This document shows positions 7,202 to 45,691 of a stretch of 46,635 bases of DNA, piece by piece. Every line of letters starts with the position of its first letter. Within the stretch, counting starts at the first letter, position 1. Source of the stretch: Singulisphaera sp. GP187 (GTDB lineage: Bacteria > Planctomycetota > Phycisphaerae > Phycisphaerales > SM1A02); contig CAMBMO010000018.1 of assembly GCA_945868805.1 (NCBI GenBank), forward strand, positions 1-46,635, read 5' to 3'. Position numbers and translations under genes: made by a program. A model generated the notes under the pieces. It saw nothing but the letters and a program-made list of their open reading frames with translations. It did no database searches and was not told where the DNA came from.

Positions 7202-7975
7202 ATGAATAGAAGTCTCAAGAGAAGTATGAGTCGAAGTGTGAGTACAAGCATGTGCGGGGGAAAGCAGATCATCGTGGCCATCGTGGCCATCGTGGGATCG
7301 CTGTCACTTTCATGTGTGGCGCAAGCTGGGATGACATTCGGTGGATGGAATTTCAACGGTCCGCAGGGAACGACAGCTCCGAGCGTTGGATCTGGAACAG
7401 CGGCGACTATCGGAGGGGTCTCGGCGAATTTCTCCACGGGCGATCCTGCGGATGATCGAGCAGTTCCTGCAGAGAACAAGGGATGGAATCTCGCGGGATT
7501 CGCGGCGCAAGGCACGGCAAGCGGTGAGCGTGGAGCGATGTTCCATTGCTCGACCGTCGGATACGAATCAGCCGTCGTGACTTGGCACGAGCGTCACTCC
7601 AATTCGGCGAGTCGATGGGTTCAATTTCAGTACGCGCTGGACGGAGTGACCTTTACGAGCGACGGAATCGCCAACGCAGGGGTCTTCGAGGCGGCGCTCG
7701 GCGGAGAAGTTTGGCAGACGGAGCGGAGAGTCGACTTGGCGTCGATTCAAGGTGTGGCTGAAAATTCGAAGTTTGCCATCCGCATCGTGAGCATTTTCGC
7801 GCCGACGACGAGTGCGTATGCGCCATCGAGTTTGACGGCGAACTACTCACCGGCTGGAACGATTCGATTCGATCTCGTCAATTTTCAAGGAGTCATGGTT
7901 CCGGCACCTGCGGCACTCGCGCTCGGCGTCGCTGGAGCGGCGGTCGCAAATGGGGGATTCCGGCGAAGAGAGTGA
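7202..7975 (+). CDS. Secreted surface protein with PEP-CTERM-like sorting tail
   Basis: The 257-residue protein has an N-terminal signal peptide (IIVAIVAIVGSLSLSCVAQAG) after an unusual Ser/Arg-rich leader built of 12-base repeats. The mature part is beta-rich and glycine-rich (GGWNFNGPQG and so on). The C-terminus reads VPAPAALALGVAGAAVANGG then FRRRE: a VPxP-type motif, a hydrophobic segment and a basic tail, i.e. a PEP-CTERM-like signal for exosortase processing. A GAGGA site lies just upstream of the ATG. The middle domain resembles proteins found near extracellular sorting systems in planctomycetes, and the function is unknown. Exosortase is not in this window. Confidence 0.75.
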   Translation: MNRSLKRSMSRSVSTSMCGGKQIIVAIVAIVGSLSLSCVAQAGMTFGGWNFNGPQGTTAPSVGSGTAATIGGVSANFSTGDPADDRAVPAENKGWNLAGFAAQGTASGERGAMFHCSTVGYESAVVTWHERHSNSASRWVQFQYALDGVTFTSDGIANAGVFEAALGGEVWQTERRVDLASIQGVAENSKFAIRIVSIFAPTTSAYAPSSLTANYSPAGTIRFDLVNFQGVMVPAPAALALGVAGAAVANGGFRRRE

Positions 7976-13940: not shown

Positions 13941-14966
13941 TTACTGCTGTGATCGGTCAGGGGCAGCCACGCTCGGCGCCTCGAACCAATCAGCGGGAAA
14001 GGCCGTCAATGCGGTCCGCGAAAAACTGATCGAAAGTGGGGGAGGTGGTGCGTGACGCTCAGCTCGTCCAGGTGGCGGACCACGCTCGCCATTGGGTGGC
14101 GATTCATGCGAACGATCGCGAATCGGTGGGTCGCCGGCTGGAAAGAACATTTCGAGCCGGATGACCTCGCTCGATTTCGAGTCGATGCACATTTCGATCC
14201 GCTCCGCAGGATTTCGCCGAGAGGGCTCTGCGTCAGCAGTCGATTCGATCTCGCGATTGGTCCGGCGAGTCGCGCGGATTTGCAAGAGCTCGGTGCTGGC
14301 GCATGACTCTGCGTCGGTCACCTTCTCGACTTCAAAAGAGTCGTCAAGTTCCTCAAGCATCGACGCCATAGAGTCCACGAGCAATGATCCGTCGGGAGTC
14401 TCGATCCAGCGGGGCCAGGGGGTCGTTCGATCCGAAGTGAACGAGGATCCATCTGGGCGGATCTCCCATGAAATCGCCCCGTCGCGGCCACGCGTTGCGA
14501 TGCGTCCGTCGGGATAGTGAATCTCAATACGCATGTGTTCGGCGTCGCGGACATCGAGTGTTGCGAGAATCGGCGGCGGTTCGTCTCCCGCGCGGCGCGG
14601 TTTCGGATTGAGAATGACCTGATACTGTCGGTCGGCTGAGTTGCTGGCCACCTTCGTCGCCGATCGAACAATCGCCGATGCGGAACTCGCCGTCGGCATG
14701 ACCAGAAGCGAAACAGCAAGCAGCGCGGCGATGGGAAGCGCCCACCATTGCCATGTGCGCATTCGATTCGACTTCGAAAGCGTCGATTGCGCGTGAACCG
14801 CGCGGAGCACTCGATTGATTCGCGCGTCCATCGACTCAGCGGTCTCGGCGAAGCGATGCGTGAGGAGTGCCTCGACGAATCGATCCTTCGACGGATCGCA
14901 AGGTTCGCATGACCGCTCTTCAGAGTCGTCCGACATGTTCGATGGATCTGGATTCATGTTTGTCAT
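13941..14966 (-). CDS. Membrane-anchored anti-sigma-factor-like protein
   Basis: The 341-residue protein has a soluble N-terminal region with Cys residues (SEERSCEPCDPSKDRF). One central transmembrane helix (WWALPIAALLAVSLLVMPTA) comes next, followed by a large external domain and a Pro/Arg-rich tail (PPPGRAERHAPPPPL). The start is ATGACAAACATGAAT, a 9-base unit of the kind repeated at other starts in the window. Its ATG overlaps the ECF sigma stop by 4 bases. It is probably the sigma factor's regulator; family assignment is by position and topology only. Confidence 0.7.
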   Translation of the reverse strand: MTNMNPDPSNMSDDSEERSCEPCDPSKDRFVEALLTHRFAETAESMDARINRVLRAVHAQSTLSKSNRMRTWQWWALPIAALLAVSLLVMPTASSASAIVRSATKVASNSADRQYQVILNPKPRRAGDEPPPILATLDVRDAEHMRIEIHYPDGRIATRGRDGAISWEIRPDGSSFTSDRTTPWPRWIETPDGSLLVDSMASMLEELDDSFEVEKVTDAESCASTELLQIRATRRTNREIESTADAEPSRRNPAERIEMCIDSKSSEVIRLEMFFPAGDPPIRDRSHESPPNGERGPPPGRAERHAPPPPLSISFSRTALTAFPADWFEAPSVAAPDRSQQ

Positions 14967-16246: not shown

Positions 16247-16806
16247 CGAACTACACTCGCAAAATGGCAAGACTCCCCGACTGGTCTGAGATTCGCGCAA
16301 TCGTGATGGATGTCGATGGGACACTGACCGATGGCGGGATTTATCTCGATGACCACGGAAACGAATTCAAACGATACGACGTACGCGATGGATTCGGAAT
16401 CGAATTGTGGCATCGGGCCGGGGGCAAGACCGGTGTGATCACGGGCCGAAGAGGACTCGCGCTGACTCATCGCATGCGCGAACTTCGTATCGGTGCGGTC
16501 GAGCAGGGAGTCTCGAACAAGATTGTCGCACTCGATCGAATCGTCGAAGTGCTTGGGGTGACACGAGCACAGTGCGTGTTTGTTGGTGATGACCTTCCCG
16601 ATCTCGCGGTGATGCGTGTCGCGGGTATCGCGGTCGCGATTGCAGGTGCGCCAGTCGAAGTTCGTGAGGTCGCAGCGGTGACAACGACTGCACGAGGCGG
16701 GCACGGCGCTGTGCGCGAGGTCGTCGAGGCGATCCTCCGTGCGCAAGGCAAATGGGATGGGCTCGTGGCAGGATGCGACAGGAATCCGACCACTATCATT
16801 CCATGA
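16243..16806 (+). CDS. kdsC: KdsC-type 3-deoxy-D-manno-octulosonate 8-phosphate phosphatase (HAD family)
   Basis: The 187-residue HAD phosphatase has the family motif VMDVDGTLTDGGIYLDD near residues 20-37 with the nucleophile and acid/base Asp. KRYDVRDGFGIELW, TGRRG and the C-terminal VGDDLPDLAVM complete the KdsC/YrbI signature, which distinguishes it from other HADs. It hydrolyses Kdo-8-P in LPS inner-core synthesis. The GTG at 16243 overlaps the pcp stop; an in-frame ATG at 16264 is a possible alternative start. The last codons overlap the sugar-binding-protein start by 4 bases. No other kds genes are nearby. Confidence 0.9.
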   Translation: MTNYTRKMARLPDWSEIRAIVMDVDGTLTDGGIYLDDHGNEFKRYDVRDGFGIELWHRAGGKTGVITGRRGLALTHRMRELRIGAVEQGVSNKIVALDRIVEVLGVTRAQCVFVGDDLPDLAVMRVAGIAVAIAGAPVEVREVAAVTTTARGGHGAVREVVEAILRAQGKWDGLVAGCDRNPTTIIP

Positions 16807-16841
16807 TCAAGATGATCAACATGATCAAGATGATCAACATG
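16803..16841 (+). repeat. Four 9-base in-frame repeats at a start codon
   Basis: ATGATCAAS (S is C or G) occurs four times from the first base of the coding sequence, followed by an ATG that starts the signal peptide proper. Each unit brings its own in-frame ATG, so initiation at any of five positions would give the same mature protein with a different leader length. Confidence 0.9.
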
Positions 16842-17843
16842 ACGACTTCAATTCACAGCGCGCAATCGTGTCGACGATGGTTGGCGGTGATGGCTTGCGC
16901 GATGTCCTTCGCGGGACTGAGTGCGATCTCTGGCCAGCAAGAGAAGGTTCGCCCACTGATCGCAGTCATTCCAAAGGGCACGACGCACGAGTTCTGGAAG
17001 ACTGTCCATGCGGGCGCGCTCAAGGGCGCATCAGAGGCGGGCGTGGACATTCTCTGGAAGGGTCCCGCGCGCGAAGATGATCGCGACGATCAAATCAAGG
17101 TTGTCGAAAGTGCCGTATCGCGCCAGGTGCAGGGGATCGTGATCGCTCCACTCGACGAACAAGCGCTTGTGCCAAGTCTGAAAGAGGCGGCAGTTGCCAA
17201 GATTCCCGTCGTGATCTTTGATAGCGGAATCAAGTGGGATGGTCGAGCGTCATTCGTCGCGACCGACAATCGCCGCGGTGGCGTGCTTGCTGCCGAGGAA
17301 ATGGGACGGATTCTCGCGGGGAAGGGTCGCATCGTGGTGATGCGCTATGTCGAAGGTTCGGCGAGCACCGCACTTCGTGAAGATGGGTTCTTGGCAACGA
17401 TCAAAGAGAAGTTTCCTGGCATCGTGATTGTGTCAAGTGACCAGTACGGTGGCGCGACCGTGGATTCGGCGTATCGAGTCGCAGAAAACCTGCTCAACCG
17501 ATTCGCGGACTTGAACGGTATGTACGCGCCGAACGAACCGACGACCTACGCGAGCATGAAGGCGTTAAAGGATCTTGGACGCGGAACGAGCGTTCACCTT
17601 GTCGGCTTCGATGCGAGCGAGAAACTCGTCGCGGGGTTGAGGGACGGATCCGTCGATGCACTGGTGGTGCAGAATCCATTTCGTATGGGAGAGCTCGCGG
17701 TGACGACGATGGCGAAAGTGATTCGTGGTGAGACTGTCCAGCGTGATGTGGACACTGGATGCACGCTGGTGACTCGCCACAACATCGACGAGCCAGCGAT
17801 CCGCGCCGTGCTTGAACCGCCGATTGCTCAGTGGCTCAAGTAG
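16803..17843 (+). CDS. Sugar ABC transporter substrate-binding protein (periplasmic, RbsB-like)
   Basis: The 346-residue protein opens with ATG ATC AAG/ATC AAC repeats (residues MIKMINMIKMIN), followed by an MTT-starting signal peptide (CRRWLAVMACAMSFAGLSAIS). The mature part is a type I periplasmic-binding protein. It starts VRPLIAVIPKGTTHEFWKT, then has GIVIAPLDEQALVPSLKEA, IPVVIFDSGI and VHLVGFDASEKLVAGLRDG. This is the ribose/xylose/rhamnose-binding-protein family. Its ATG overlaps the kdsC stop (ATGA). With the ATPase, permease and GH29 fucosidase downstream, fucose or a related deoxysugar is the likely ligand. Confidence 0.9.
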   Translation: MIKMINMIKMINMTTSIHSAQSCRRWLAVMACAMSFAGLSAISGQQEKVRPLIAVIPKGTTHEFWKTVHAGALKGASEAGVDILWKGPAREDDRDDQIKVVESAVSRQVQGIVIAPLDEQALVPSLKEAAVAKIPVVIFDSGIKWDGRASFVATDNRRGGVLAAEEMGRILAGKGRIVVMRYVEGSASTALREDGFLATIKEKFPGIVIVSSDQYGGATVDSAYRVAENLLNRFADLNGMYAPNEPTTYASMKALKDLGRGTSVHLVGFDASEKLVAGLRDGSVDALVVQNPFRMGELAVTTMAKVIRGETVQRDVDTGCTLVTRHNIDEPAIRAVLEPPIAQWLK

Positions 17844-25316: not shown

Positions 25317-26579
25317 CTACTTGGTGGCTGGCTTGGGTGGTGTGGCTGGCTTGGGTGGTGTGGCTGGAGTCGCTGGCGTCGTTGCTGGCGTCGTTGCTGG
25401 CGTCGAGGGTGTGGCGTTCATGTCTTTAATCTTGCTCCCAGGCTTCAATCGCTGAATCCCATCGACCACGATGCGGTCGCCGACATTTGGACCGCTCAGA
25501 AGCGCTGACATCGTTCCGACACTCTTGAGCAGTTTGATCAGCACAGTTTCGACTGTGTTGTCCGGCTTCACCCGCCAGACAAAGAGATCGGTCTCGCGTG
25601 CGAAGAGCGCATCCTTGGGGATGACCATGACATTGGGTTGGACGCCGAACGAGACGGAAACCTGCGAGTACACGCCCGGGCGGAAGATGAGATTCGGATT
25701 CGCGAATTCCACTCGCATCATCAAGGTGCCCGTGGAAGTCGAGACCTGGTTGTTTGCGAAGATGACCTTGCCAGTCGCCTTGATCGCATCATCTCCGTCG
25801 TACGTCACGGTCGCTTCAAGCGCTCCCTTGGCCATCATGGCTGCGTACTTCGGCCACTGCGTCGCGGAGGGGCTGAACTCGACCCAGAGCGGATCGATCT
25901 GCACAAGCGAATTGAGATTCTGGGTGTTGAGGTCTCCGACGACTGCACCCTCGAAGTATTGGCTCGCACCGAGCAAGCCAACGAAGGGACTCGACATCGT
26001 GCAATACGACAGATTGATCGTCGCGGTCGCGACATTGGCTTGCGAAGTGACGACTTGTCCCTCGTCCGATTCGAAGTTGACGACGAGTTGATCGAACGAT
26101 TGCTGGCTGATCGCACTCACCGGAACGAGCGGTGCGTTACGATCCATTTCCTTGCGGGAGTAGTCGCGCTCGGCGATCGCTTGGACGAGCGATCCCTTTG
26201 CGGCGTCGAGCAACGCCTCGAATGGTTTCGGATCGATTCTGTAAATGACCTGATCCGGTTTGGTCGTTGACCCGTCGGCGACTTCCTGCTTCAGCAGGAA
26301 TCCCTGGACGCGGGCGTCGATGCTGATCGAACGAGGCGACACGACGATCCCTGGATAAACATGATCAAGCGGGATGTTTTGCAAGGTCACGAGCGCAGTC
26401 GTGACAGGCACCCAGTCAGGTCGCACCGGTGGTTCTGGTGGTTTCACACATCCAACCACGCCTGTCATGATCAACGCTGTTGTCATGTTTGTCATGTTGG
26501 TCATGTTTGTCATGTTTGTCATGTTTGTCATGTTGGTCATGGCGAGAAGCGTCCGGGTGGCGAATCGAAATTCGTTCAT
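25317..26579 (-). CDS. RND-associated periplasmic adaptor (AcrA/MexA-like lipoprotein) with Met-Thr-Asn repeat leader
   Basis: The ATG at 26579 overlaps the TolC stop (ATGA) and gives 420 residues. The leader is MNEFRFATRTLLA, followed by six MTN units and then MTTALIMTGVVGC, with Cys in a lipobox-like GVVGC. Adaptor features come next: a flanking lipoyl half (SIDARVQGFLLKQEVADGS), a coiled-coil hairpin, a second half (TMSSPFVGLLGASQYFEGAVVGD) and a barrel (PGVYSQVSVSFGVQPNVMVIPKDA). The C-terminus is a Thr/Pro/Ala-rich tail encoded by tandem repeats at about 25320-25406. It bridges the RND pump and the outer-membrane channel. Confidence 0.92.
   Translation of the reverse strand: MNEFRFATRTLLAMTNMTNMTNMTNMTNMTNMTTALIMTGVVGCVKPPEPPVRPDWVPVTTALVTLQNIPLDHVYPGIVVSPRSISIDARVQGFLLKQEVADGSTTKPDQVIYRIDPKPFEALLDAAKGSLVQAIAERDYSRKEMDRNAPLVPVSAISQQSFDQLVVNFESDEGQVVTSQANVATATINLSYCTMSSPFVGLLGASQYFEGAVVGDLNTQNLNSLVQIDPLWVEFSPSATQWPKYAAMMAKGALEATVTYDGDDAIKATGKVIFANNQVSTSTGTLMMRVEFANPNLIFRPGVYSQVSVSFGVQPNVMVIPKDALFARETDLFVWRVKPDNTVETVLIKLLKSVGTMSALLSGPNVGDRIVVDGIQRLKPGSKIKDMNATPSTPATTPATTPATPATPPKPATPPKPATK
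25320..25406 (-). repeat. Tandem repeats coding a Pro/Thr/Ala tail
   Basis: The 3' end of the MFP gene contains two near-identical 18-base units (CTTGGGTGGTGTGGCTGG on plus) and two 12-base units (GTTGCTGGCGTC). They encode PATPPKPATPPKPATK and TPATTPATTPA. A flexible C-terminal extension like this is unusual for AcrA-type adaptors. Confidence 0.8.
26484..26540 (-). repeat. Six 9-base ATGACMAAC repeats inside a lipoprotein leader
   Basis: On the minus strand the array runs from ATG at 26540 to 26484. Six units of ATGACMAAC (M is A or C) are followed by ATGACAACA. The frame is kept, so the protein reads MTN six times and then MTT. The same 9-mer occurs at 14966 and 45682. Confidence 0.95.
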
Positions 26580-45049: not shown

Positions 45050-45691
45050 TCAAACCTTCTTCGCCGCACGCTTGCCGAGAAACTTCGCGATGTCGAAGTC
45101 GACGAAGTCAGCGTGATGAAAGATGATCGACTCGATCGATCTCTCCATCTTGTCGCCTTCATGACTGTGGGTCGCAATGATGTGCATCACCTCTCCCGGG
45201 AGCCCGTGCTTGTACGCGAGCGCGACACCAGTAAAAGGGTGGCGGACTTGTTGCCCAAATGTCCCCTGAATCACTTTGCCCGTTGCATCCTTGTCGAATT
45301 CAAGTGGCTTGCCACAGTCCGCAAGCAGAGCACCCGCGATGAGATAGTCGCGTTGAATTGGGATCTCGCAGCTGAACGAACTTTCGAGCACATCTGCAAT
45401 TGCAATGCACTGCTTCGCGCACGAGTTCAAGTGATCGACGAATGTCATATCGATGTCGCCCGCGAGCAAGGTGAATTTGACGGCGCGAAGTTCGGCAAAG
45501 GTCCATCCCTTGCCGCCGCAGCCAGTATGGATCGCTTCGTTCCAGACTGCGGCGACACGTTCGCGCAGCGTGGCATCAGAAATCTTGAGCAGGCTGGGAA
45601 AGAGTTCAGCGATCTCTTGGACACCGTAGGTTGTTGAATTGGTTTGTTTGGTCTGGTTTGTCTCGTTTGTCTCGTTTGTCATGGTGGTCAT
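45050..45691 (-). CDS. HD-domain phosphohydrolase-like protein with repetitive N-terminus
   Basis: The ATG at 45691 gives 213 residues; a second ATG at 45682 is equally possible. The N-terminus is MTTMTNETNETNQTKQTN, a three-codon repeat. The rest is a helical HD-type hydrolase fold with DHLNSCAKQCIAIADVL, DYLIAGALLADCGKPLEF and IIATHSHEGDKMERS. The His/Asp set is incomplete relative to canonical HD proteins; DCGKP and HSHEGD are candidate ligand positions. It lies directly upstream of the LYS4-type gene. Confidence 0.75.
   Translation of the reverse strand: MTTMTNETNETNQTKQTNSTTYGVQEIAELFPSLLKISDATLRERVAAVWNEAIHTGCGGKGWTFAELRAVKFTLLAGDIDMTFVDHLNSCAKQCIAIADVLESSFSCEIPIQRDYLIAGALLADCGKPLEFDKDATGKVIQGTFGQQVRHPFTGVALAYKHGLPGEVMHIIATHSHEGDKMERSIESIIFHHADFVDFDIAKFLGKRAAKKV
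45640..45691 (-). repeat. Degenerate 9-base repeats at the HD-gene start
   Basis: On the minus strand ATGACCACC, ATGACAAAC, GAGACAAAC, GAGACAAAC, CAGACCAAA and CAAACCAAT follow one another, keeping the reading frame. They encode MTT, MTN, ETN, ETN, QTK, QTN. The ACAAAC core is the same as at 26484-26540 and 14958-14966. Confidence 0.85.

Follow-up and report, generated by a model that had tools for sequence, protein, structure and literature searches.

Tandem arrays of 9-bp units, which keep the reading frame and share a core sequence, are located near the starts of unrelated genes in Singulisphaera sp. GP187 more often than by chance. The window, that is, the whole stretch of 46,635 nucleotides analyzed here, is one contig of this 2.5-Mb, 47-contig genome (labelled G000), and one of its arrays resides in the gene for the periplasmic adaptor of a resistance-nodulation-division (RND) efflux system. 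An initial annotation of the window, made from the letters alone, had proposed such repeats as a recurrent leader architecture, which should be more frequent at gene starts than in gene interiors or in codon-shuffled controls. The pattern passed this comparison. A period-9 array was present in 7 of 610 start regions versus 7 of 6562 windows from gene interiors (about 11-fold; Fisher p = 6e-5), and codon shuffling of the starts gave 0 in 30,500. The recurrence at unrelated genes was supported in G000, with further unrelated genes in G000 and its relatives.

These numbers refer to a G000 sample of 847 kb, composed of the window and 40 stretches of 20 kb, with 646 called genes; the test was made on the 610 genes with a length of 360 nt or more. 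A run score of at least 15 defined a period-9 array, and the first 90 bases of a gene defined the start region. Gene starts in the sample were called by a home-made dicodon caller, which misplaced or missed three genes, those at positions 16803 and 45691 of the window and a FlgM-like gene. The arrays of these three genes are for this reason outside the 7 of 610, and the seven include an unlike array at position 7270, which encodes IVAIVAIVG. Such arrays are a warning that automatic start calls need checking in genomes of this kind. When the window was left out, 5 of 569 starts versus 6 of 6180 interior windows contained a period-9 array (p = 0.0013). At gene ends, 1 of 610 was positive, and the 110 kb of intergenic DNA contained one period-9 array among 31 arrays; this lone array was composed of early codons of the FlgM-like gene missed by the caller. 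Gene ends and intergenic DNA often contained arrays of other periods, and other near-start arrays of 12, 15 or 18 bp likewise kept the frame. Among arrays of four-codon units, the clearest parallel to the 9-bp ones was a 12-bp array near a start at L034 5807-5844 (VANITMMTGTMTGTMTGT). Outside called genes, 18-bp arrays that contain stop codons (with a consensus close to TGGCTGATATTTAATAAG) formed at least two blocks at L045 18411-18590, and a 22-bp array of about eight copies was located near a contig end at L038 229-414.

In a sample of G051, which belongs to another genus (g34), 2 of 193 starts versus 2 of 1946 interior windows contained a period-9 array (p = 0.04). This genome has many 9-bp arrays (L137, L142, L143, L145 and L148; units ATGATCAAG, ATCATCGTG and others), several of which do not lie in called genes and two of which are at contig ends.

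A shared core connects the arrays, the unit of which is mostly ATG-ACC/ACA-AAC or this unit lacking the ATG. Three tandem copies of ACMAACNNN, searched in all of G000 without any gene calls, gave 12 matches that correspond to five arrays, all of them within the first 33 codons and all reading Thr-Asn (T-N-x), with two matches for the reversed control in G000 and three in G018. Three copies of ATGACNANC, searched over 392 genomes of the phylum, were present only in G000, with five arrays, and in G072, with one array that precedes a signal-peptide-like stretch; the control gave 0 matches. The five G000 arrays of this search were again all within the first 33 codons and in a single frame. Both sets overlap and yield eight distinct arrays, with the array at 16803 as the ninth. 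These nine start-region arrays belong to L034 (FlgM-like), L036, L043 (NagB-PIG-L), L048, L105 (FG-GAP) and L114 (HlyD) and, in the window, to the adaptor, the HD protein and the sugar-binding protein at 16803. The host genes are unrelated, and two are without a family. Two of the arrays are slightly internal, at codon 14 in the adaptor gene and at codon 11 in the FlgM-like gene if the latter starts at position 14220 of L034. This position, ten codons ahead of the array and preceded by AGGAG, is probably the start of the FlgM-like gene. An in-frame stop at most four codons upstream supports the starts of L036, L043 and L048, and the start of L114 is uncertain because the frame upstream of its array contains no stop up to the stretch edge.

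Seven of the nine arrays begin with ATG-AC (p = 2e-5), including the two probably internal ones of the adaptor and FlgM-like genes. Threonine is often the second residue (65 of 489 genes starting with ATG) and is the most enriched N-terminal residue in G000 (1.43-fold); ATG-ACN pairs outside the arrays are mildly commoner early in genes (30 of 12,141 versus 272 of 195,998 inside genes; p = 0.004). The shared core is, with this, only partly explained. A long shared upstream sequence, which would indicate spread by a mobile element, was not obvious by eye in the nine flanks of 38-60 bases.

A looser ATGAC pattern had matches in 92 of 400 genomes of the order versus six genomes with a reversed match, and many of the places were acidic or His-Asp repeats inside genes. 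Those taken for starts belonged, as judged by Pfam, to AMP-binding, peroxidase, ZnuA, LpoB, M3 peptidase and NfeD-type proteins and to two pilin-type N-methyl proteins; the family scan of 16 such proteins gave eight above the cut-off, seven without a family and one below the cut-off only. ATGACNNNNATGACNNNNATGAC alone was rejected as a start marker, with about 14 of 40 places judged plausible gene starts and the remaining ones either ambiguous or read in another frame as Asp-rich or His-Asp repeats. In four genomes of the genus (L198, L205, L208 and L211), CATGACNNN arrays lie within open frames some 720-730 codons long, which read them in another frame as His-Asp-x. A search of G000 for four ATGs spaced at period 9 gave 66 matches, which merged to 22 places; six were start arrays described here, three were judged non-starts and 13 remained unclassified, so that the number of start arrays is a lower bound. 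An array with eight ATGs at period 9 (ATGCCAAAC/ATGTCCAAC) is present at G000:C3:54419-54485.

The arrays of the window, located with Tandem Repeats Finder, are listed in Table 1 together with related start patterns. All three 9-bp arrays that count among the nine keep the frame, as the initial annotation had stated. The ATGA of the adaptor gene at 26579 overlaps the stop codon of the gene before it, and the orthologues in the genus start at the matching place. Position 26579 is most likely the start codon, and the array therefore comprises codons 14 to 31. The six ATGACMAAC units and their frame are confirmed, but the array is not at the start, where it had been placed. It reads as positioned between the n-region and the h-region of a putative lipoprotein-type signal peptide. 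The C-terminal part of the same gene also contains 18-bp and 12-bp arrays (PATTPATTPATPPKPATPPKPATK; window 25324-25405, minus strand).

The array at the sugar-binding gene was borne out in unit, copy number and frame. It has an 18-bp higher-order unit, ATGATCAAG/ATGATCAAC; the ATGA start of the gene overlaps the upstream stop (gap of -4), and the frame is open for 45 codons further upstream of the array. In the HD-protein gene, ACAAACGAG/ACAAACCAG units follow ATGACCACCATG, with a Tandem Repeats Finder span of 45646-45680. The 9-bp units assigned to this gene exist in frame but do not contain an ATG, encoding TNE and TNQ. The single unit noted at an anti-sigma gene is indeed one ATGACAAAC followed by ATG and does not count as an array. 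What had been described as a 12-base version at 7202 has 28 of 48 matches at lag 12, reached in 0 of 5000 codon shuffles, but is degenerate, and its best run score of 7 is reached in 135 of 5000 shuffles. Rfam gave no match.

Table 1. Repeat arrays, related start patterns and their host genes in the window
Feature	Position	Strand	Evidence or remark
9-bp array, (ATGACMAAC)x6 then ATGACAACA	26480..26541	-	Tandem Repeats Finder: 6.9 copies, 94% match
RND efflux periplasmic adaptor bearing the array	25317..26579	-	TIGR01730 E 4.9e-53; HlyD_D23
9-bp array ATGATCAAS x4 at likely start codon (MIKMINMIKMIN)	16802..16842	+	4.6 copies
Periplasmic sugar-binding protein	16803..17843	+	Peripla_BP_4 E 2.6e-60
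9-bp array ACAAACGAG/ACAAACCAG (TNETNETNQ), right behind MTTM at likely start	45651..45680	-	
HD-domain protein, Thr/Asn-rich N-terminal tail	45050..45691	-	PF01966 E 4.1e-8
Single ATGACAAACATG at gene start, no array	14955..14966	-	
Degenerate 12-base pattern at start (MNRSLKRSMSRSVSTSM)	7202..7252	+	Related in kind only
9-bp array CATCGTGGC x2.9, signal-peptide-like stretch (IVAIVAIVG)	7270..7295	+	Different unit

Supply of spare start codons, one of the functions suggested in the initial annotation, is not the common factor, because three of the nine arrays repeat without an ATG (L048 with TNQ, L105 with TNL and the HD protein with TNE/TNQ). Outside the arrays, in-frame ATGs were not enriched at codons 2-12 (139 of 7029 versus 4274 of 196,631 inside genes).

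Comparison with orthologues revealed how long the arrays last. For the adaptor, 16 loci were compared, three of which were missed by the motif search and not counted, and the leaders of all 12 genus orthologues shown besides the window gene were without the array. It was likewise absent at the sugar-binding gene in six of six close orthologues (82-85% identity), which start at the same place, and at the NagB-PIG-L gene in five of five, with MTTLT in G008 in place of the MTTMTTMTTMTK of G000. The HD-protein units were absent in six of six orthologues, the tails of which differ, so that TNETNETNQ exists in G000 only of seven genomes; the start MTTMT is common to G000, G008, G016 and G013. The L048 gene, which has no family, was matched in 18 of the 19 genomes of the genus, counting G000. 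Its array was seen in four of these 18 by a scan that detects only orthologues with at least three copies, with ACAAAC copy numbers of 6 in G000, 4 in G001, 3 in G015 and 3 in G002. As judged by the coordinates, ACAAACCAG is at the N-terminal end of the orthologue in G001, G015 and G002, and two of the G000 units end with CAA. The same core is kept at 64-67% protein identity. The proposed change of leader length is thus visible as a copy number that differs between species at this gene, with slippage as its presumed cause. Together, the absences and the L048 copies indicate that the arrays are mostly species-specific insertions, that one is longer-lived or recurrent, and that copy number moves.

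The array units are G-poor, with one or two G among the nine bases in the nine listed units. Folding of the region from -20 to +60 was compared with that of 469 genes. The array of L114 was not included because it is 38 bases from the stretch edge, and neither was that of the adaptor because it is not at the start. The six start-anchored arrays folded with -1.6 to -12 kcal/mol (median -6.2), versus a mean of -18.6 for the 469 genes (p = 5e-5) and about -23 for gene interiors. The adaptor's own start reached -11.6, and the adaptor and the six arrays were all among the weakest 15%. The six arrays also folded more weakly than simulated fivefold expansions of the first nine bases of each gene (-17.6; p = 3e-4), and the same held against 63 simulated ATGAC starts (-14.7; p = 0.003). 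With the FlgM-like array included, folded from the first ATG of the array, the p values against the simulated expansions and the simulated ATGAC starts were 1.7e-4 and 0.003, respectively.

Most called genes (473 of 632) are without a 4-base Shine-Dalgarno match, and no difference was seen for the array starts, six of nine of which are without it (five of nine if the FlgM-like gene starts at 14220). Termination-reinitiation at an ATGA overlap was rejected as a common cause, since only the sugar-binding array of the nine begins at an overlap. The overlap of the adaptor is at the gene start, away from the array, the genes of six other arrays are separated from their neighbors by 21-975 bases, with three of these neighbors on the opposite strand, and the ninth array is at a stretch edge.

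On balance, the arrays are probably in-frame extensions made by slippage and filtered by frame, tolerance and, probably, accessibility of the start. A 9-bp stretch at or just after a start codon would expand in tandem by slippage or short tandem duplication, and the copied stretch would often contain ATG and an ACN codon for threonine. Copies may survive if the frame is kept, nine bases being three codons, if the protein tolerates a Thr/Asn/Ser-rich tail in front of its signal peptide or domain, and if the start region stays open enough for ribosome loading, in a genome where a Shine-Dalgarno match is missing from most called genes. Extra ATGs would be a by-product where the copied unit contains one. 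We infer slippage as the cause and tolerance plus accessibility as the filter; an active benefit of the arrays is possible.

Several observations weigh against this explanation. Two same-genus samples contained no period-9 array at starts (G005 with 0 of 298, G014 with 0 of 285) or in interior windows (0 of 3068 and 0 of 3089), albeit both genomes carry some ATGAC arrays and their samples therefore understate the arrays. Arrays of other units also exist inside genes (GGQ, PVN and HPS). Outside the arrays, ACMAAC is not commoner early in genes (6 of 12,141 versus 91 of 195,998 inside genes), so that the usual composition of starts does not account for the shared core, and a hot unit or selection is called for. 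The orthologues of the adaptor and the sugar-binding protein show no such unit in their first codons. The FlgM-like start at 14220 folds ordinarily (-17.6; 46% of genes are weaker), and adding it in this form changed the comparison with the simulated sets to p = 0.001 and 0.012. Dinucleotide shuffles fold about as weakly as the arrays, so that the weak folding is a matter of composition and not of order.

Extensions of this kind may need no filter at the start at all. If 9-bp arrays arose everywhere and lasted wherever the protein sequence is unimportant, the start would have no special role, and the frequent arrays of other periods in intergenic DNA and at gene ends, the HD-protein tails that vary between species and the FlgM-like array on a start that is not unusually open would fit. 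This is a possibility, albeit a doubtful one. Intergenic DNA, as the most tolerant DNA, should then be rich in period-9 arrays, but its only one is inside the missed FlgM-like gene, gene ends have a single one, and neither the ACMAAC/ATGAC core nor the single frame is predicted. Selection could act instead on the number of units as a translation rheostat, in which the length of the open leader and the number of AUGs are kept as useful variation, similar to contingency loci. Copy number indeed varies between orthologues with the core retained, most array starts rank with the least folded ones, and expression in Escherichia coli increases with the copy number of CA repeats placed behind the start codon, as stated in a review (PMC4611024). 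Nevertheless, such a rheostat is rather unlikely, because the host genes do not, as a class, encode surface antigens, the units of three arrays are without ATG and persistence between species was seen for one array only. It is about as unlikely that arrays with the ACMAAC core, whether they contain ATG or not, serve the lineage genome-wide as a frame-safe element of translation initiation adjustable by copy number, in which slippage would alter the length of an open, G-poor start stretch and thereby the output of unrelated genes.

A function of the peptide itself, with a Thr/Asn-rich (MTN)n or (TNQ)n tail acting in export, stability or binding, would agree with the T-N-x reading of all five ACMAAC arrays and with threonine as the most enriched N-terminal residue. 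It is very unlikely, since the tails are on cytosolic and exported families alike, differ in their residues (MIK, MTS, MTT and TNQ) and are dispensed with by the orthologues of four genes. Misassembly or wrong start calls, finally, might be suspected from the home-made caller with its three misplaced or missed starts and from the open frame upstream of the L114 array. Arrays of 30-62 bp should fit into one short read, however, the L048 array is at the same gene in four genomes, and several starts are backed by orthologues or by the nearby in-frame stops of L036, L043 and L048, so that an artefact is most improbable. Even if the units adjust nothing, they are naturally occurring insertions close to start codons for which orthologues serve as controls, and the effect of early-codon composition on expression is thereby directly testable.

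Three known systems are related to these arrays. Simple repeats are reported to be enriched near the termini of prokaryotic genes, chiefly the N terminus, and suppressed mid-gene (Lin and Kussell 2012, as described in PMC4692102). The G000 arrays similarly concentrate near the N terminus, exceeding both gene interiors and codon shuffles. The repeats described there are linked to frame-shifting phase variation, whereas the G000 unit of 9 bp is frame-neutral in all nine arrays and has a shared core over unrelated genes. With the phase-variable contingency loci, the arrays have in common a copy number that varies between relatives at the same gene, that of L048. If the units adjust initiation, they would correspond to contingency loci that are safe for the frame and change expression by degrees instead of ON/OFF. 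An in-frame ATG in every unit, as tandem spare starts should have, is not present in L048, L105 and the HD protein. The CA repeats just 3' of an E. coli start codon (Martin-Farmer and Janssen 1999, as described in PMC4611024) act with or without a 5' untranslated region. The G000 units are similarly C/A-rich, G-poor and near the start, although two of the nine lie 10-13 codons in; the CA repeats are placed dinucleotide multimers with a measured effect, whereas the G000 arrays are natural 9-bp units known from sequence. The nearest precedent for a shared unit is the TAACTGA direct repeat of marine Beggiatoaceae, for which MacGregor (2015; PMC4679880) reports a patchy distribution close to the starts of numerous genes that follow no functional pattern and proposes a role in translation. 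Both are one short unit at many gene starts, with TAACTGA upstream of the starts and the G000 unit coding and usually including or following the start codon. Enrichment of simple repeats at N termini is already known in bacteria; the shared-core 9-bp form, of which no report was found in open-licence PubMed Central, is new.
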